A stretch of 26,174 nucleotides of DNA from a virus, in IMG/VR virus record IMGVR_UViG_3300017971_000704, positions 1-26,174 of that record. One strand, 5' to 3'. Positions 9,320-21,729 of the stretch are shown here, in pieces. The first letter of the stretch is position 1; each line of letters starts with the position of its first letter. The position numbers were made by a program, and so were the translations under genes. The notes under the pieces were generated by a model, which was not told where the DNA came from, did no database searches, and saw nothing but the letters and a program-made list of their open reading frames with translations.

Positions 9320-9832
9320 ATGAAACCCACCACAAATTGCTTTCCTACACCTGACCGAATCTACCGCAGATATAACAAGATGATCATGAAGATAGCTCAT
9401 ACTATGAGCAAAAAATTCAACAAACCATTTGATGAATTGTATGCAGAAGCAATGTATCACGTGCTGACAAGAATCCAAGAATGGAATCCAAAAAGAGGAG
9501 GCCTCTGTACTCATGTCTACAACTGTGCTTACTTTCATACCTGGAATTATTGTAAACCGGAAAGAGAAATTCCTCATGAATCAGATAACCCAACATTTGT
9601 AGAGCAAGAGACAAAACCCAACTGGTTCAAAAATTTTCTCAATGAGTTGTCAGAAGAAACCCAACAGCTAGTGAAAATCATCTTTGAAGCTCCTGAAGAA
9701 TTATATGAGACCGTCAAACCCAACTGCCCAAAACTCTCCAAGAAAGCCATACGAAATTATATGATTGATGCAATGGATTGGGATGAAATCAGAATTGAAA
9801 AATCCTTTGCAGAGATCAGGCAATGTCTCTAA
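9320..9832 (+). CDS. Sigma-70-family-like protein
   Basis: A 170-residue protein. The start is taken at the ATG at 9320 because GGAGG precedes it by six bases; an in-frame ATG at 9308 is less well placed. Residues about 12-80 follow sigma region 2: YRRYNKMIMKIAHTMSKKF, then DELYAEAMYHVLTRIQEWNP, KRGGLCTHVYNCAYFHTWNY. The C-terminal segment (ELSEETQQLVKIIF...IRNYMIDAMDWDEIRIEKSF) may be a degenerate region 4. It could redirect host RNA polymerase to phage promoters or act as a sigma-like regulator. It overlaps the helicase start by 10 bases. The region 2 match is by eye. Confidence 0.6.
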   Translation: MKPTTNCFPTPDRIYRRYNKMIMKIAHTMSKKFNKPFDELYAEAMYHVLTRIQEWNPKRGGLCTHVYNCAYFHTWNYCKPEREIPHESDNPTFVEQETKPNWFKNFLNELSEETQQLVKIIFEAPEELYETVKPNCPKLSKKAIRNYMIDAMDWDEIRIEKSFAEIRQCL

Positions 9833-12189
9833 AAAAGAGACTCAAAAAAGTCCTGAAAACAAAACCATATCCTTTTCAGCGTAGAGGGATGCTGTTCTTC
9901 AAACAAACAAAAGGACGGGCTCTCCTGGGGGATGATATGGGTCTTGGGAAAACAATTCAAGCGCTAGGTTGGTTAGCTGTTAATCCAAGCAAACGCCCTG
10001 TTATTATTGTTTGTCCAGCCAGCTCCAAATATAATTGGGCTGATCAGATTGAACAGCACACTCATATGAGATATCAAATATTAAACAGCAGAAATCCTGA
10101 ACCTGTTACTGAGCCCATTGTCATCATCAACTATGATATTTTGGCTTATTGGAAAGAAAAACTTCTAGGCATTCAACCCAAAGTATTGATCACAGATGAG
10201 TGTTTTCCTACAGGCACTCCTATAAAAACCCCTTCAGGTTATATTCCTATTGAAAAAATAAAACTAGGAGATTCTGTCCTAAATGCTTTTGGTATAGGAA
10301 TTGTAAAAAAGACAAACAAAAGAATTTCTAACTTAATAGAACTTCATTTAAGTAATGGAACAAAAATACAAACAACCCCTAATCATCCTTTCTTTACATC
10401 TGAAGGATGGATAAAAGCAAAAAATCTTTATCAAAAAATTCTTTTGACTTCTACAGATGTTCTTAATATAATGAATGAAGACACTATATTAAGAGAGAAA
10501 AAGAAAAATGATCAAATGCCAATGGTGCCAAAAGAAATTCAATCCAAAAAGAAAAACACAAAGATTTTGCGGTTGCTCTTGCTCAGCGAAATGGAGAATG
10601 AGTCAACCACATATCAAAAGAAAGATTTACAAAAATCAAACCCACGAAGTCCGTTCTGCTGGTGCAATAAAGATGCACAAAGACAATCCACATATCGCCA
10701 AAGCTTCTTCAAAAAGAATGAAAGAAAACAATCCATCTTCCAAACCAGAAGTGAAAAAAAAGATCAAAGCACATTGGAAAAAATATGGTCATCCTTTATC
10801 AAAAATACAAGCAAAAGGAGGCAATGGAAAAGAATTTTCACAGCCACAAAGAATTTTATGGGCGGCATTAGGCTCTCCATGGAAAATAGAGCATGCAATC
10901 CGAACAAAACAAAAAAGAAAATCTGGCTATCCTACATGTTACAAAGTAGATATAGCTCTTTTAGAAAAAAAGATTTGGATAGAAGTAGACGGTTGGTCAC
11001 ACAAACAGCCACATATAATTGCAAAAGACAAAAAGAAAAAAAATCTATTGATGAAATTAGGGTGGAAAGGATTGAGATTTACAAACCAAGAAATAATGGA
11101 AAACCTTCCCAACACACTGTTTACAATTTACAAGTTTCTGGACATCCATCATACTATGTAAATGATTTTTTAGTTCATAATTGTCATTATGTAAAAAACT
11201 TGAGAGCAAAACGGACAAGAGTCTGCAAAGAACTTGCCAAGAAAAGCAGACACATAATCGCTATGAGTGGCACTCCTATCATCAATAGGCCTGTTGAATT
11301 TTTTCCTATACTCAACATGATATGTCCAAAAGAATTCTCTAGCTTCTGGAAATTTGCTTTCAGATATTGTGATCCAAAAAGAGGATGGGCTGGCAAAGGA
11401 TGGGATTTTAGTGGAGCCAGTCATCTGGATGAATTGAGAGAACGAATCGAGCCTCTATTCCTTCGCAGGATGAAAAAAGAAGTATTAAAACAGCTGCCAG
11501 AAAAACAAAGGACAATAATGTCTGTAGACATAGACAATCAAGCTGAATATCACAAGGCTACAGTCTCTTTCCTTCAATGGTACAAAAACAAAGCAGGAAC
11601 CGTGGCGGCGAAGAGAGCAAAGAAAGCTCAAGCGCTGGTCAAGCTAGGCCAGCTAAAACAATTAACAGCCAAAGGCAAACTGTCTCAAGCATGTGAATGG
11701 ATTGACAATTTTCTTTTCTCCACTGATGAAAAACTAGTGATCTTTGTTTATCATCAAGAAATATTCCAAACATTGATTACACAGTATAAAAGGATAGCTG
11801 CAATTGGAGGGAAATCAGGAAAGAAAAGACAAAACGAAGTGAACAAATTTCAATCTAATGACAAGTGTAGATTGTTCATAGGAACTATCAGAGCAGACAA
11901 GGAATCAATCACTTTAACTGCTGCCCGAAGCGTGCTCTTCATTGAATTAGGATGGACTCCAAGCGAACACAATCAAGCAGAGGATAGAGTGAATCGAATC
12001 GGTCAAAAGTATAATAAAGTAAATGTCTATTATATCCTAGGACGAAATACTGTGGATCAATATGTGTGGGATGTTATTGAAAAAAAGAGAGAAGTGATTG
12101 ACCAAATCATTGATGGTAAATCCCATAGGAAATCATTAGTGGATATTTCAAAAGTAATTCAGCTCATAGAAAAAGGAGAAAAGAATTGA
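9823..12189 (+). CDS. SNF2-family DNA helicase/translocase interrupted by an intein
   Basis: A 788-residue precursor. Extein motifs: Walker A GDDMGLGKT (residues 36-44), Ia IIVCPAS, motif II split as ITDE/CHYVKN, motif III AMSGTPIIN, and C-terminal motifs LFIELGWTPSEHNQAEDRVNRIGQK with YYILGRNTVDQYV. Residues 127-453 are an intein; removal leaves about 461 residues, a normal size for phage SNF2-like helicases. The enzyme is an ATP-driven DNA translocase, probably used in replication or recombination. The intein splits motif II, so the ATPase should be inactive until splicing. Upstream it overlaps the sigma-like gene; downstream it overlaps a small RHH gene. Confidence 0.92.
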   Translation: MSLKKRLKKVLKTKPYPFQRRGMLFFKQTKGRALLGDDMGLGKTIQALGWLAVNPSKRPVIIVCPASSKYNWADQIEQHTHMRYQILNSRNPEPVTEPIVIINYDILAYWKEKLLGIQPKVLITDECFPTGTPIKTPSGYIPIEKIKLGDSVLNAFGIGIVKKTNKRISNLIELHLSNGTKIQTTPNHPFFTSEGWIKAKNLYQKILLTSTDVLNIMNEDTILREKKKNDQMPMVPKEIQSKKKNTKILRLLLLSEMENESTTYQKKDLQKSNPRSPFCWCNKDAQRQSTYRQSFFKKNERKQSIFQTRSEKKDQSTLEKIWSSFIKNTSKRRQWKRIFTATKNFMGGIRLSMENRACNPNKTKKKIWLSYMLQSRYSSFRKKDLDRSRRLVTQTATYNCKRQKEKKSIDEIRVERIEIYKPRNNGKPSQHTVYNLQVSGHPSYYVNDFLVHNCHYVKNLRAKRTRVCKELAKKSRHIIAMSGTPIINRPVEFFPILNMICPKEFSSFWKFAFRYCDPKRGWAGKGWDFSGASHLDELRERIEPLFLRRMKKEVLKQLPEKQRTIMSVDIDNQAEYHKATVSFLQWYKNKAGTVAAKRAKKAQALVKLGQLKQLTAKGKLSQACEWIDNFLFSTDEKLVIFVYHQEIFQTLITQYKRIAAIGGKSGKKRQNEVNKFQSNDKCRLFIGTIRADKESITLTAARSVLFIELGWTPSEHNQAEDRVNRIGQKYNKVNVYYILGRNTVDQYVWDVIEKKREVIDQIIDGKSHRKSLVDISKVIQLIEKGEKN
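10201..11181 (+). mobile_element. Intein in the DEAH-type box of the SNF2 helicase
   Basis: A 327-residue intein. It begins with Cys (CFPTGTPIKTPSGYIPIEKI, block A) and has a block B TPNHPFF segment. It ends with block F VYNLQVSGHPSYYV and block G NDFLVHN before Cys+1. The junctions are DE/C...HN/C, giving a spliced DECH box. G+C is about 30% at the N-end, lower than the flanks. The middle (about 10500-11040) has no recognisable domain in the intein frame, being a Lys/Ser/Gln-rich filler, because the same DNA encodes an endonuclease in another frame (10508-11161). Confidence 0.92.
10508..11161 (+). CDS. Vsr/DUF559-like homing endonuclease, out of frame inside the intein
   Basis: A 217-residue ORF lying wholly inside the intein in the next reading frame. 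Domains in order: an N-terminal zinc finger (CQWCQKKF...FCGCSCSAKW), NUMOD3-like DNA-binding repeats (IKMHKDNPHIAKASSKRMKE, NNPSSKPEVKKKIKAHW), and a PD-(D/E)XK domain of the Vsr/DUF559 type: FSQPQRILWAAL, YKVDIALLEKKIWIEVDGWSH, then LMKLGWKGLRFTNQEIMENL. These are the expected catalytic Asp and Glu/Asp/His positions. It starts at ATG 10508 behind a weak GAGAGA site. It would cut intein-less alleles and promote homing of the intein (family knowledge plus inference). The last 120 bases also encode the intein splicing blocks F and G. Confidence 0.85.
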   Translation: MIKCQWCQKKFNPKRKTQRFCGCSCSAKWRMSQPHIKRKIYKNQTHEVRSAGAIKMHKDNPHIAKASSKRMKENNPSSKPEVKKKIKAHWKKYGHPLSKIQAKGGNGKEFSQPQRILWAALGSPWKIEHAIRTKQKRKSGYPTCYKVDIALLEKKIWIEVDGWSHKQPHIIAKDKKKKNLLMKLGWKGLRFTNQEIMENLPNTLFTIYKFLDIHHTM

Positions 12190-16737: not shown

Positions 16738-17358
16738 ATGGCTGATGAGAGAAAGGTGGTTTTGAGTCTGCTGGAGAAACTGGGCGTGAAGTACACGTCA
16801 AAGATCAGTCTGGAACGGGCGAAGCAGAAGTTGGAGAGGAAGATTGAGAAGGATGGTCTTCCTGAGGATATCGAGATCACGAAGGCTGAAGTCAAGGTTC
16901 TGACAGCAATAGGGTATGAACTTGACTTTGAGGATGAAAGTGCTGATGAGCCTACTGAAGATGATCTTGCCGACATTGAAGAGGAAGAGGAAGAAGAAGA
17001 GGAAGAGGAAGAAGAAGAGGAAGAGGAAGAAGAAGAGGAAGAGAAAACTGCTCCGAAGAAAAACAAGAAGACATCCAAGAGCAAAGGCAAGAAGGAAAAG
17101 AAGGCTCCTGTACAAAAGAAGTCTTCTAAAAAGACAAAGCACCGGGGCGCTGGTGTTATTGCTACGATTGCTGAAATTCTTGCAAGCGCAAAGCGCCCAA
17201 TGTCTCTTGAACAGATTCATGAGAAATTGGTCAAGAAGTTTCCTGACCGGAATGCTGACTCAATGCTTGCCACGATTAGAGTACAGGTTCCTGGTCGTTT
17301 GAACAAAGAACGTGGCATGAAGATCGAAAAAACAGACAAAGGCTACGTGACCAAGTGA
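16738..17358 (+). CDS. Acidic winged-helix (HARE-HTH-like) protein with poly-Glu tract
   Basis: A 206-residue protein with AAGGAG upstream. Residues 1-60 are mixed-charge helical (VVLSLLEKLGVKYTSKISLE). Residues 81-102 are 22 consecutive Glu, then a Lys/Ser-rich basic stretch (about 105-138). The C-terminal domain (GVIATIAEILASAKRPMSLE, QIHEKLVKKFPDRN, TIRVQVPGRL) resembles a HARE-type winged helix as found in the RNA polymerase delta subunit. The acidic-basic-winged helix order suggests a DNA- or polymerase-associated protein, possibly a regulator. It lies just upstream of queC. Confidence 0.6.
   Translation: MADERKVVLSLLEKLGVKYTSKISLERAKQKLERKIEKDGLPEDIEITKAEVKVLTAIGYELDFEDESADEPTEDDLADIEEEEEEEEEEEEEEEEEEEEEEKTAPKKNKKTSKSKGKKEKKAPVQKKSSKKTKHRGAGVIATIAEILASAKRPMSLEQIHEKLVKKFPDRNADSMLATIRVQVPGRLNKERGMKIEKTDKGYVTK
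16978..17043 (+). repeat. Codon-level tandem repeat encoding 22 Glu
   Basis: Sixty-six bases of GAA/GAG codons built on an 18-base unit (GAGGAAGAGGAAGAAGAA) present three times from 16981 with a partial fourth. It is a likely site of length variation by slippage. Confidence 0.85.
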
Positions 17359-17383: not shown

Positions 17384-18052
17384 ATGAAGTCGGTAGTATC
17401 ATTATCAGGTGGGATGGATTCGGCAACAGCTCTTGACTGGGCTATCAATAATAGTGAAGAAGTTATTGCTGTTGGTTTCATCTATGGAAGCAAGCACAAT
17501 CCGTATGAACAGAAATGTGCTGAGCAACTGGCTTATCACTTTGAAGTGGAATTCATACGGATAGACCTGTCAGCAATTGGTAATCATCTCAGATCCAATC
17601 TGCTTAGGAATGGTGGAAATATTCCTGAAGGTCATTATGAATCTGAATCCATGAGACAGACTGTTGTTCCAGGCAGGAATATGATTTTCATTTCAATTCT
17701 TGCAGGGATTGCAGAAAGCCGTGATTTTGATACAGTGGTTCTAGGAATACATGCTGGGGATCATTTTATCTATCCAGATTGTAGACCCAAGTTTTTTCAT
17801 GCGATGGATTGGGCTGTGGAGAAAGGGACTGATGGGAAAGTGTCCCTTCAGGCTCCCTTTCTCCACGGAAACAAAACAACCATACTTCAATATGGTTATG
17901 AATCTTCAAAAGAACCTTTCCCATATCAACTCACTCGTACCTGTTACAAGGATCAGGAGTTGGCGTGTGGAAAATGTGGAGCTTGTCAGGAACGTTTGGA
18001 GGCCTTCAGAAATATTGGTCAGATTGATCCTGTTCAATATGAGGAAGAGTAG
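17384..18052 (+). CDS. queC: 7-cyano-7-deazaguanine (preQ0) synthase
   Basis: A 222-residue enzyme that converts 7-carboxy-7-deazaguanine (CDG) to preQ0 using ATP and ammonia. The PP-loop SLSGGMDSATAL is at residues 6-17, and the C-terminal zinc site has Cys187, Cys195, Cys198 and Cys201 (TCYKD, ACGKCGACQ). Length is that of normal QueC, and there is no fused amidotransferase domain. It is the first gene of a tight queC-queD-queE-folE-dpdA operon. The final DNA base is thus more likely preQ0 than archaeosine-type G+, unless another gene outside the window acts on it. Confidence 0.95.
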   Translation: MKSVVSLSGGMDSATALDWAINNSEEVIAVGFIYGSKHNPYEQKCAEQLAYHFEVEFIRIDLSAIGNHLRSNLLRNGGNIPEGHYESESMRQTVVPGRNMIFISILAGIAESRDFDTVVLGIHAGDHFIYPDCRPKFFHAMDWAVEKGTDGKVSLQAPFLHGNKTTILQYGYESSKEPFPYQLTRTCYKDQELACGKCGACQERLEAFRNIGQIDPVQYEEE

Positions 18053-18418
18053 ATGTATACGATCTCAAAAAGGATTGAGATTGCCGGAAGCCATAGACTG
18101 AATCTGGATTATGATTCTCCCTGTTCAGAACTTCATGGCCATAATTGGAATGTGATTGTAGAGGTACAAGGAGAAAGACTGAATGAGAATGGAATGCTGA
18201 TTGATTTCAAACACATCAAGGAAATTGTCAATCAGTTGGACCATTCTCATATCAATGATCATATTTCCTTAAATCCTACGGCTGAGAACATGGCCTTCTG
18301 GATTGCCTTTGAAATTCAGAAGAGAATTAATGAAGAATGGGAAGGGGATGAAATTCCCTGTATTTCCAAAGTCTCAGTCCAAGAGAGCGAAGGAAATCTG
18401 GCATGCTATATCCCATAA
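18053..18418 (+). CDS. queD: 6-carboxy-5,6,7,8-tetrahydropterin (CPH4) synthase
   Basis: A 121-residue QueD/PTPS-family enzyme that turns dihydroneopterin triphosphate into CPH4. Zinc ligands His14, His28 and His30 (AGSHRL, LHGHNW), catalytic Cys24 (SPCSEL) and the DHSHIND segment are in place. The ATG directly follows the queC stop with GAGGAAGAG as ribosome site. Full length; overlaps queE by 16 bases. Confidence 0.95.
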   Translation: MYTISKRIEIAGSHRLNLDYDSPCSELHGHNWNVIVEVQGERLNENGMLIDFKHIKEIVNQLDHSHINDHISLNPTAENMAFWIAFEIQKRINEEWEGDEIPCISKVSVQESEGNLACYIP

Positions 18419-19023
18419 ACCAAATCTTTTACAGCTTGCAAGGTGAAGGATTTTATGCCGGACGCCCTGCAGTTTTTATTCGATTGTCTGGCTGCAATTT
18501 GAAATGTCCTTGGTGTGATACCAACCATACAAAACATGAAAAGATGTCAGAAGAGCAAATTGTTCAGATGGTAGGAGAACTTTTGCCTCAAAGATGGCCT
18601 CCATTTGTTCTGATTGTTATCACAGGAGGAGAACCAACTTTATACGATCTTAATCCTTTATTGACAGAACTCACATTGATGCTTTCACCTAATGAAATCG
18701 CCATAGAGACCAACGGATACAATCTGAAAAGTATCCCACGTCTTAGCAACATCTGGGTGACAGTCTCACCAAAAATAATGGTGGAAGATTGTACAGCATT
18801 CTTTGATGATAAAGAGTGGTCAGGTGATGAATTGAAGATTGTTCTTGAGCCAGATATTGACGTTGAACTAATAAGGAAATTGCCCTTACGTCTACATACC
18901 AGATTTAATCATTTCTACATCCAGCCTTGCAGTGAAGACTTCGAGTCTGCTGTTGAATTTGTAAAGGAGAATCCATTGTGGATGCTGTCAGTACAGATAC
19001 ACAAGCTGATAAATATTTCCTGA
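18403..19023 (+). CDS. queE: 7-carboxy-7-deazaguanine (CDG) synthase, radical SAM
   Basis: A 206-residue radical SAM enzyme that makes CDG from CPH4. The cluster motif is C31-x3-C35-x2-C38 (GCNLKCPWCD), preceded by FYSLQGEGFYAGRPAVFIR and followed by ITGGEPTLYDL (SAM-binding GGE motif). Slightly shorter than many QueE. The start overlaps queD, and its end overlaps the next gene by 46 bases. Confidence 0.95.
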   Translation: MLYPINQIFYSLQGEGFYAGRPAVFIRLSGCNLKCPWCDTNHTKHEKMSEEQIVQMVGELLPQRWPPFVLIVITGGEPTLYDLNPLLTELTLMLSPNEIAIETNGYNLKSIPRLSNIWVTVSPKIMVEDCTAFFDDKEWSGDELKIVLEPDIDVELIRKLPLRLHTRFNHFYIQPCSEDFESAVEFVKENPLWMLSVQIHKLINIS

Positions 19024-20762
19024 GTTGGGATGATGTTTCTCTCAGAGCCGTCAATCTGGCCACTCAGATTAGAGAGGAATTGAATCTACCACCAGAATGC
19101 TACAAAGTGATAAGTATCTATGGTGTTCCTCGTGGTGGAATATTTCCAGCCTTACTGCTGCAGAAACATCTTCATGCAAACAATATTCTTGCTGACAAAC
19201 CGGAGGAGGCCGATATCTTTGTGGATGATATCATTGATTCCGGAGCTACGAGAGACAGGTACAAAAGGGATTTCCCAGACATTCCTTTCATTGCTTTGTA
19301 TGACAAGACAAAGGGAGAAGTTCCAGGCTGGTTGGTTTTTCCATGGGAAGCTATGTGTGAAGAGACCGGCCCACAGGAAAATATTGTGCGTATGATTGAA
19401 TATATTGGAGAAGACATACACAGAGAGGGATTGATAGAGACTCCTAATCGCGTTATCAAATCGTGGGAAACCTTGTATGGTGGTTATCACGTTGATCCCA
19501 AATCTGTTCTCAAGATGTTTGAGGACGATTCAAGTGATGAGATTGTTTTGCTGAAAAACATGGAATTTTTTAGCACGTGTGAACACCACATGCTTCCATT
19601 CTTCGGCAAGGCTCATATAGCATACATCCCAAATGGAAGAGTTGTAGGAATCAGTAAACTAGCTAGAGTGCTTGAAGTTTTTGCGCGAAGGCTTCAGATT
19701 CAGGAGAGGCTTTGTCAACAGATTACATCATTGCTTGATGAGGAATTGAAACCATTAGGTTCTGCCTGTATCTTGGAAGCCCAACACTTTTGTCTTGCTA
19801 AAGGAACTAAAATACAATTGGCTTATCTTGATAGAAATATTTTTCCTGATGGTGTTCCGATAGAAACTCTTGTTGGAAAACAAAATCTTCCTATTTATAG
19901 TTATGATAAAAATACAGAAAAAATTGTAATTGGAAATGCATCTAAAATATGGAGATCAGGAAGAAAAAAAGTATATAAAGTAACATTTGAATGGTTTTCA
20001 AAAAATCAATATAAAAAGAAAAAAATGAATGGGTCTATTAAAGTAACGGAAGATCATCCTTTTATGTTGCGTCACAAACTTCATAATCGTTATAATAATA
20101 AACACAGAAAATATAAAAATGGAGATTATTTGACAATTAAAGATGGGCTTTCTGTAGGTGATAGTCTGATGCCTTTTTCGTGCTATGGAGAAGAATACAA
20201 AACTTTATCCTTAAATAATGGGGACTATGTACATGAACATAGATTTTTAGCAGAAAATAAAATTGGAAGGAAATTAAAAACTTCTGAGGCTGTTCATCAT
20301 AAAAATGGAAATACCTTAGATAATAGCTTAAATAATTTAATTATCTTAAAGAGAGGAGAACATTCAAAAAAACACTTTGAAGGGAAAAAAAATGAGAATA
20401 AAAGCCATCCTGCTCATAACAAAAAAATTAGAAATCCATTAACATGTTTAGGATGTGGAAAAACATTTTTTGTTAAGTATGCCTATTTAGAAAAAACACA
20501 AAAGTTTTGTTCTCAAAAATGCTATCTTAAAAATGAAGGTAACCATAAAATAATAAAAATTGAAGAACTTGGTATAGAAGAAGTATATGATATTGAAGTA
20601 AATAAATTCAATAATTTTGCGGCAGAAGGTATTATTGTTCATAATTGTATGACTTCCAGGGGAGTTCAGAAGCAAAATTCTATCATGACCACATCCAGCC
20701 TGACTGGGGTATTCAGAGAGAAAGATGCTTCACGGTCTGAATTGTTCCAAATGATTAAGTAG
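18978..20762 (+). CDS. folE: Gpt-like phosphoribosyltransferase fused to GTP cyclohydrolase I, with intein
   Basis: A 594-residue precursor. Residues 1-135 are a purine phosphoribosyltransferase: WDDVSLRAVNLA, YGVPRGGIFPALL, PRPP motif ADIFVDDIIDSGAT (79-92), and PGWLVFPWE. The order resembles E. coli Gpt (WD...RA, SRGG, VIDDLVDTGGT, WIEQPWD). From about 140 it is GTP cyclohydrolase I: HREGLIETPNRVIKSWETL, zinc ligands Cys201 and His204 (TCEHHMLPFFG), VVGISKLARVLEVFARRLQ, and EAQHF/CMTSRGVQKQ. Residues 272-556 are an intein placed directly before the third zinc ligand. The spliced enzyme has about 309 residues. FolE supplies dihydroneopterin triphosphate for QueD. The start overlaps queE by 46 bases, with AAAGGAGAA upstream. 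Confidence 0.92.
   Translation: MDAVSTDTQADKYFLSWDDVSLRAVNLATQIREELNLPPECYKVISIYGVPRGGIFPALLLQKHLHANNILADKPEEADIFVDDIIDSGATRDRYKRDFPDIPFIALYDKTKGEVPGWLVFPWEAMCEETGPQENIVRMIEYIGEDIHREGLIETPNRVIKSWETLYGGYHVDPKSVLKMFEDDSSDEIVLLKNMEFFSTCEHHMLPFFGKAHIAYIPNGRVVGISKLARVLEVFARRLQIQERLCQQITSLLDEELKPLGSACILEAQHFCLAKGTKIQLAYLDRNIFPDGVPIETLVGKQNLPIYSYDKNTEKIVIGNASKIWRSGRKKVYKVTFEWFSKNQYKKKKMNGSIKVTEDHPFMLRHKLHNRYNNKHRKYKNGDYLTIKDGLSVGDSLMPFSCYGEEYKTLSLNNGDYVHEHRFLAENKIGRKLKTSEAVHHKNGNTLDNSLNNLIILKRGEHSKKHFEGKKNENKSHPAHNKKIRNPLTCLGCGKTFFVKYAYLEKTQKFCSQKCYLKNEGNHKIIKIEELGIEEVYDIEVNKFNNFAAEGIIVHNCMTSRGVQKQNSIMTTSSLTGVFREKDASRSELFQMIK
19791..20645 (+). mobile_element. Intein with HNH homing endonuclease in FolE
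   Basis: A 285-residue intein starting CLAKGTKIQLAYL and ending YDIEVNKFNNFAAEGIIVHN before Cys+1 (HF/C...HN/C). A block B TEDHPF segment is present. In the middle is an in-frame HNH domain with EAVHHKNGNTLDNSLNNLI and EHSKKH (His440-His441), then a zinc finger (CLGCGKTFF...KFCSQKCY). G+C is near 25% against about 43% in the flanking FolE coding DNA, consistent with recent arrival. It splits the enzyme immediately before the catalytic zinc Cys, so unspliced FolE should be inactive. Confidence 0.93.
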
Positions 20763-20769
20763 GAATATC

Positions 20770-21729
20770 ATGAGCATCAAGCTGTTTCTTGATAGTGGAG
20801 CCTTTGGTATCTATAAGAGATTATCAAAGGGAAGCATGGATGGATCGGCTATGTCTACTCTCAAGAGTCGTTCACGGGATGATTATTCTTACGTTTGCTC
20901 AGACGAATACAAAACATATCGAAGGGAATACGTTCGCTTTCTGAAAAAGCATGCCAAGCATTTTGATGTTTATGCAAATCTTGACGTGATTGGGAATGCT
21001 GAGCTTACCTACAAGAATCAGAAATGGTTTGAGAAACGGGGATTCAAACCATGTCCGGTCTGGCATATTGATTCTGATGTGAAATGGCTTCAGAGATATA
21101 TTGATGAAGGATATGACTACATTTGTATTGGAGCGATGGTTGGAGTTTCTTCTGTAATTTTACGACAGCTTTTAGATATGGTATGGTCAGAGATTCTTAC
21201 TGATAACAAAGGAATACCAAAGATAAAAGTACATGGATTTGGAATGACCAGCTTCAGTCTCATGAAAAGATATCCTTGGTATTCTGTGGACTCCACCTCT
21301 TGGGTGATAAGTCCAGGGTTCGGTTCCATTCTCTACCCGAAGAAAGGAAAGACAGAGGGATACGATTGGGGTTCTATTGAGAGCATTACCGTCTCAAACG
21401 TTGGGTTTAAGAAAGACCCTGGTTCCAATACCCACTTCAGGAACAAGCCTTCCTACTTAAGAAGGTATATTCTTGAATACTTGGAGAGCGCCGGCATTCC
21501 CTTTGGGGAAAGTTCATACAAAAAGGTCAATCCAAACTATGTCTTGAAGAAGGACGGTGAGAACTGGCTTGTTAAAGGAGAAGAGATTGAAGTAGTCGAA
21601 TCTCCAGGTGTATCAAACACTAGAATGAGAAGAGTTGATGCTTGCCTGTATGCCTTCACTGAGTTTGAGGCCCATCTGCCGAGGTGGCCATGGGCTCTAA
21701 AACTCAAGAAGAGAAAGACGTTACTATGA
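20770..21729 (+). CDS. dpdA: DpdA, TGT-like DNA 7-deazaguanine transglycosylase
   Basis: A 319-residue TIM-barrel protein. Visible segments are LFLDSGAFGIYKR (Asp8), DVYANLDVIGNAELTYKNQK, CPVWHIDSDVKWLQRYID, KVHGFGMTSFSLM and YPWYSVDSTSWV, the conserved order of phage DpdA proteins. It lacks the C-terminal zinc Cys cluster of tRNA TGTs. DpdA replaces guanine in phage DNA with preQ0 or a derivative, releasing free guanine (family knowledge). It follows the PRT-FolE gene by a few bases and overlaps the first mini-gene (ATGA). The location and the complete preQ0 pathway make the call strong. Confidence 0.92.
   Translation: MSIKLFLDSGAFGIYKRLSKGSMDGSAMSTLKSRSRDDYSYVCSDEYKTYRREYVRFLKKHAKHFDVYANLDVIGNAELTYKNQKWFEKRGFKPCPVWHIDSDVKWLQRYIDEGYDYICIGAMVGVSSVILRQLLDMVWSEILTDNKGIPKIKVHGFGMTSFSLMKRYPWYSVDSTSWVISPGFGSILYPKKGKTEGYDWGSIESITVSNVGFKKDPGSNTHFRNKPSYLRRYILEYLESAGIPFGESSYKKVNPNYVLKKDGENWLVKGEEIEVVESPGVSNTRMRRVDACLYAFTEFEAHLPRWPWALKLKKRKTLL

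Follow-up and report, generated by a model that had tools for sequence, protein, structure and literature searches.

A Vsr-like nuclease gene nested in the +1 frame of a viral helicase intein and of its relatives in phages and prophages

In the textbook form of an intein, a homing endonuclease and a protein-splicing domain are fused. A viral helicase gene raises the question of how an intein is organized and maintained when its putative endonuclease is encoded in another reading frame. We analyzed a 26,174-base virus record from IMG/VR (the whole stretch is referred to as the window), in which an ORF of 788 aa at 9823–12189 on the + strand encodes an SF2/SNF2 helicase (Pfam SNF2-rel_dom, 1.1e-27; Helicase_C, 3.5e-09). 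Its features are given below, with a slash marking a splice junction.

9823–10200, + strand: N-extein, the N-terminal part of the SF2/SNF2-type helicase, ending in the Walker B sequence ...VLITDE (Pfam SNF2-rel_dom; junction DE/C).
10201–11181, + strand: intein of 327 residues, Cys1...His-Asn, followed by a +1 Cys (Pfam Intein_splicing, NCBIfam intein_Nterm and intein_Cterm, HINT model).
10201–10470, + strand: N-terminal splicing part with blocks A and B, coding in a single frame (pLDDT 86–98 over intein residues 1–90).
10490–10492, + strand: TAA stop in the nuclease frame, 15 nt from the ATG, which by its sequence rules out frameshift entry from further upstream.
10501–11040, + strand: stop-free filler of about 180 codons in the intein frame, opposite the nuclease and predicted to be disordered (pLDDT mostly 45–56; 0 stops against 12.2 expected).
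10508–11161, + strand: nested +1-frame ORF of 217 aa with an ATG start and a TAA stop, encoding a C4 zinc finger, a NUMOD3-like linker and a DUF559/Vsr-like nuclease (Pfam; AlphaFold; structure match to I-Bth0305I and Vsr).
11041–11158, + strand: stretch structured in both frames, namely the C-terminal splicing part of the intein (block F) and the C-terminal part of the nuclease (pLDDT; lowered 4-fold divergence family-wide).
11182–12189, + strand: C-extein, the remaining helicase, beginning Cys-His-Tyr, with the DE/CH box restored on splicing (Pfam SNF2-rel_dom and Helicase_C; alignment to the intein-less homologue L002).

An earlier note, made from the letters alone, had outlined this layout, and its coordinates proved correct: no stop interrupts the intein frame between Cys127 and Asn453 of the 788-aa ORF, and the 217-residue nuclease with its own ATG at 10508–11161, placed there in a different frame, lies in +1. 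The roughly 180 stop-free filler codons that it described were borne out by the shuffles given below, and its proposal of dual coding at 11040–11161 agrees with the high pLDDT of intein residues 281–327 and nuclease residues 178–217, which are read from the same DNA.

The intein begins directly after the Walker B ITDE and ends in VHN before CHY, and the intein-less homologue L002 aligns across this insertion site. Pfam Intein_splicing matched at 4.4e-13 with the window intein alone as query, and NCBIfam also recognized it. The residues of class 1 inteins are present in the window (C1, TTPNH in block B, VHN/C) and recur in the 150 lineages of the family described below, where C1 was found in 150/150 and the terminal HN in 139/150, with Cys at +1 in 144 and Ser in 6; C1, H62 and N327 are invariant in 58 inteins. 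In the structure model, whose alignment, like that of the nuclease model, held the window and the scanned loci only, pLDDT exceeds 80 over most of the splicing halves and peaks at 98, with the filler (about residues 100–280) mostly at 45–56. Foldseek matched the HINT model to the gp41-1 intein at 2.2e-06, and its hits to gp41-1 and DnaB inteins ranged from 1e-6 to 1e-5. The window element thus combines the splice-site residues of a class 1 intein with a predicted HINT fold, and protein splicing is predicted on this basis.

The product of the nested ORF matches Pfam DUF559 at 1.5e-11, and the DUF559 profile matches 78 of 78 nuclease members. It carries four zinc-binding-type cysteines and an RMKENNP stretch that, by eye, is NUMOD3-like. 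Its AlphaFold model (pLDDT 92.7) matches I-Bth0305I (3r3p, the best match), a DUF559 protein (3hrl) and Vsr (1vsr) in the PDB, and over 11041–11158 pLDDT is 81–97 for the intein and 89–98 for the nuclease. Five catalytic-type residues, D148, E159, D161, H165 and D174, are invariant in 78 nucleases that are about 29–52% identical to that of the window. In a sequence alignment to I-Bth0305I, an EDxHD enzyme, D161 stands opposite Asn and nothing corresponds to the His; the fold matches. These profile and model matches place the nested protein in the DUF559/Vsr-like group, with a PD-(D/E)XK-type fold and predicted nuclease activity.

A conventional contrast to this intein is found in the same genome. 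At 18978–20762, a second intein interrupts a FolE (GTP cyclohydrolase I) ORF that has an N-terminal phosphoribosyltransferase-like part, and its HNH endonuclease is in frame. This ORF belongs to a 7-deazaguanine-type cluster at 17384–21729 (QueC, QueD of the PTPS type, a QueE-like radical SAM protein and FolE), which suggests that the phage DNA carries a 7-deazaguanine modification. The gene that follows these (20770–21729) has no Pfam match, and a protein encoded at 16738–17358 contains a long Glu-rich run (GAG/GAA repeats) and, by eye, a C-terminal winged-helix-like stretch.

To find relatives, we selected loci by nuclease homology alone, which left the intein frame free to vary in the selection; an open intein frame in these loci is therefore an independent observation. 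A single-protein scan found no close relatives of the window nuclease, and family members came through family alignments. The first alignment matched 201 viral and 37 bacterial-genome stretches, and two further alignments matched 330 and at least 381; at most the best 80 loci were taken per viral scan, and the scans were partly overlapping and limited by similarity. Profile searches of the fetched loci identified the nuclease together with both intein halves in at least 253 loci, comprising about 170 distinct sequences and, after clustering at 70% identity, at least 150 lineages. Among the 253 loci listed, all 253 had a single ORF spanning the two halves, with the nuclease in +1, and none had a nuclease in frame or in +2. 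The other full-family members among the loci listed were five at contig ends, also in +1, and three free-standing relatives. L041 (3797–4429) and L242 (2977–3663, overlapping the helicase start) are free-standing ORFs, each immediately preceding an SF2 helicase without an intein, and L204 is near other phage genes; the nucleases of L041 and L242 are possibly the source or an escape form of the nested gene. Split-intein members were absent from the loci listed, and the halves share one ORF in all complete loci. The suggestion that nesting is an evolutionary intermediate toward split inteins was not supported: the layout looks old and stable, and free-standing relatives sit beside intein-less helicases.

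The same arrangement is present in public phage records. A tblastn search with the nuclease matched 40 records, each time inside one longer annotated host CDS that was a helicase where a function was stated. We examined eight of them, from Vibrio phages K391, 1.088.O, 1.194.O, 159E43-1b, 104E43.1 and 24, Pseudomonas phage MR14 and Corynebacterium phage phi673; in all eight, the host CDS encodes a helicase with an intein, and the nuclease in its +1 frame is unannotated.

The distribution of insertion sites bears on mobility. Insertion directly after the Walker B DE was observed in 131 of the 150 lineages, and the exteins include SF2 helicases, clamp-loader-type AAA+ ATPases, a terminase large subunit and a D12-class methyltransferase. 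In closely related Vibrio phages, one helicase occurs in three states: empty (544 aa, QDE/CHH), with a nuclease-free mini-intein (K459), and with the nested-nuclease intein. The empty sites are precise, and relatives with an empty allele include 141O35-1 and 1.024.O. The 4-fold divergence of Vibrio intein DNA is 0.02–0.17 against 0.41–0.54 for the exteins, and identity climbs at the intein borders; between K391 and 1.088.O it is about 76% just outside the borders and 90–98% inside. As the scans found no close relative of the window copy, recent movement of that copy is inferred from what the family shows. The closest helicase lacking an intein, L002 (67% identical), carries Glu at +1 and so is not a clean target itself.

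One possible explanation is that the nuclease entered a pre-existing mini-intein as an accessory with another role, such as excluding rival phages, and does not drive mobility, as the position of the free-standing nucleases directly upstream of SF2 helicases without inteins (L041, L242) might suggest. We consider this improbable, because nuclease and splicing-domain distances are correlated (rho 0.49; 0 of 2,000 permutations; like our other pairwise tests, this one reuses lineages, so that pairs are non-independent and P values are indicative only), the intein appears mobile as a unit with the nuclease, and both are tied to Walker B sites. In two Vibrio phage loci, L131 (13VV501A) and L132 (PS65A.1), the same helicase gene contains the Walker B mini-intein and an additional intein at Walker A (GK/C...HN/T). 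The Walker A intein is a mini-intein in 13VV501A and is longer in PS65A.1, where by eye it apparently has an in-frame LAGLIDADG-type endonuclease.

Shine-Dalgarno matches of at least 6 nt precede 39 of 264 start-zone ATGs against 18 of 1,958 control ATGs (odds ratio 18.7), while matches of at least 5 nt are found in only 71 of the 150 lineages. Examples with the two elements a few bases apart are AAGGAGGT in L016, L024 and L099 and AGGAGGTG in L057. The window ATG at 10508 has a weak upstream AAGAGAG, and several other genes of the contig are likewise weak. The nuclease-frame TAA at 10490 leaves ATG 10508 as the only start, and in 36 lineages at most 12 codons separate the last upstream stop from the first CxxC. 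The Shine-Dalgarno enrichment and this TAA favor internal initiation at the nested ATG, which we infer to be the best explanation of nuclease production. A programmed ribosomal frameshift out of the intein frame, or transcriptional slippage there, would instead yield a fusion of N-extein, intein and nuclease, and purine- or A-rich runs just before the ATG (10499–10508) and near 11035–11041, together with the weak Shine-Dalgarno sequence of the window, would suit such a product. However, entry after the TAA at 10490–10492 leaves about 8 codons before the first zinc-finger Cys, the 36 lineages leave no more than 12, and canonical Shine-Dalgarno and ATG pairs stand before many nested ORFs, such as the four just named. 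We therefore regard a fusion as decidedly improbable.

We further investigated how selection acts on the two frames. Across the 150 lineages, the intein frame over the nuclease contains 0 stops against about 1,410 expected, whereas the third frame contains 2,511 against 2,266 expected. Two-fold NNY codons in these lineages end in C 1,067 times and in T 0 times before AA, AG or GA, compared with 1,600 C and 2,650 T elsewhere. In the free-standing relatives, the corresponding frame contains 9, 17 and 26 stops. The nuclease is under purifying selection. In close pairs its third positions vary most, and first-position change in the filler is a by-product. Nuclease 4-fold divergence over 120 pairs is 0.59 in the filler zone, 0.63 in the exteins and 0.18 in the block F/G zone; therefore, most of the filler is merely kept open, and the last 25 or so intein codons are constrained in both frames.

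These results bear on several claims of the earlier note. Selection holding two frames open is supported, and is strengthened by 150 lineages with the same layout. The codon-position comparison across homologues that it proposed gave a third-position excess in the nuclease frame, with filler changes at the first position. Its account of the filler stood in part: the filler is kept stop-free, but amino-acid constraint in both frames is seen only at the block F/G end. The signs of error that it named, stops in homologues or frame-restoring indels, did not appear, as both frames are uninterrupted over the overlap and no such indel is needed.

The nested ORF could also be a decaying or unexpressed remnant, with only the intein being of consequence. 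Endonuclease genes in inteins often decay, and nuclease-free mini-inteins do occur at the same site; nevertheless, the invariance of the catalytic-type residues in 78 nucleases, the third-position bias of change and the Shine-Dalgarno enrichment make a remnant highly improbable.

Chance was evaluated in the window itself. In 20,000 synonymous shuffles of the nuclease codons, the intein frame acquired 12.2 stops on average and never 0, as in the real sequence, and contig codon usage in place of shuffling gave an expectation of 18.2. An open alternative frame was absent from all 1,440 segments of 654 nt examined in the contig's other genes. An A-rich, stop-poor base composition was ruled out by the shuffles, by members of up to 67% GC and by the stop-rich free-standing controls. 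A group I intron-borne endonuclease was also rejected, as the host frame is open throughout and no Rfam intron was found in the window at the gathering threshold. Assembly or sequencing indels that displaced an ordinary in-frame endonuclease, the position seen in most described inteins and in the FolE intein of the window, deserve next to no credence, because about 170 distinct sequences, cultured phages among them, share the register with both frames uninterrupted over the overlap. Shared as it is by about 150 distinct virus and prophage lineages, the dual-frame layout is a genuine and widespread design and not a sequencing error.

Why the +1 register is used follows from the genetic code, because only there can every intein-frame stop be avoided synonymously. 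In the +1 arrangement, intein-frame stops arise where xxT is followed by AA, AG or GA, whereas +2 forces stops, for example at Met before a codon starting with A. Dynamic programming over all codon choices in 79 lineages gave 0 unavoidable intein-frame stops for +1 and 213 for +2, with at least one in the +2 arrangement in 77 of the 79. This codon rule together with common descent explains the register; the number of origins lies outside the reach of the rule. A more hydrophilic filler as the reason for +1 was considered, and was not relied on given the weak difference (GRAVY −1.00 versus −0.92; 97/150).

Taken together, the locus is very probably a mobile intein at the Walker B site of an SF2 helicase, with a homing endonuclease that is a translation product of its own, made from a nested +1 gene. 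One mRNA would give two products. Ribosomes starting at 9823 would make the helicase-intein-helicase chain, with a disordered loop opposite the nuclease gene, and the HINT halves would splice the intein and its loop out of the helicase. Ribosomes starting at the internal ATG 10508 would make the zinc-finger/Vsr-like nuclease, which would cut intein-less alleles at the conserved Walker B codons, and repair of the cut allele would copy the intein DNA in. The +1 register would persist through synonymous nuclease changes that remove every intein-frame stop. Nuclease translation, protein splicing, the specificity of cleavage and homing itself are all proposed here from sequence patterns and models.

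This arrangement resembles canonical mobile inteins (PI-SceI type and HNH inteins) in its HINT halves, its Cys1...HN/Cys residues, the placement of a nuclease gene between blocks B and F, a conserved catalytic motif as insertion site and a homing footprint. It differs in that the nuclease is in +1 with its own start, outside the spliced-out chain, which has a disordered filler. In 2009, Dassa et al. reportedly described "fractured genes", in which a split intein is accompanied by a free-standing gene for a Vsr-like endonuclease. These share the broad Vsr-like kind of nuclease, the association with inteins and separate translation, but there the intein and host gene reportedly occupy two ORFs, compared with one uninterrupted ORF here. 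I-Bth0305I, of EDxHD/Vsr fold (PDB 3r3p), is matched by Foldseek with probability 1.00 and a TM of 0.73 on the target, and by sequence at 7.7e-4. In contrast, its PDB annotation is that of a mobile intron protein, and it is about 24% identical over the catalytic domain, whereas here the nuclease follows a C4 zinc finger and is carried by an intein.

The ShiLan domain and the Pacc40 insertion, reported in 2025, are an out-of-frame HNH endonuclease in phage DNA methylases (PMC11855218). The authors detected neither intein nor intron, and the insertion was thought to remain in the host protein; the nuclease was placed in the "third frame", without a detectable ribosome binding site (PMC11855218). 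In both systems, a mobile endonuclease is encoded out of frame within a host gene whose own frame stays open, but the family described here has an intein with conserved splicing halves, a Vsr/DUF559-like nuclease, the +1 frame and Shine-Dalgarno sequences across the family. In the literature searched, we found no other account of an intein with an endonuclease in another frame. PMC11855218 cites a preprint on actinobacteriophage inteins with a "non-canonical architecture", so that out-of-frame intein endonucleases may have been described in part before.

We consider it likely that these phage and prophage loci represent a large, ancient class of mobile inteins, in which the homing endonuclease is an overprinted +1 gene with its own start, uncoupled from the splicing precursor, in a register dictated by the code, and missed by annotation. 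The last point is a practical blind spot, as the nuclease is unannotated in 8/8 public phage records examined, and other inteins with unexplained fillers may merit checking for hidden nucleases. Cultured Vibrio phages offer empty, mini-intein and full alleles of one gene for direct tests of homing. Dual coding in about 150 lineages pairs a folded nuclease in one frame with a disordered loop that is tolerated in the other; toward the 3' end, the DNA encodes two structured domains at once. The family is a natural experiment on the origin and persistence of overlapping genes, in which a simple codon rule predicts the register.
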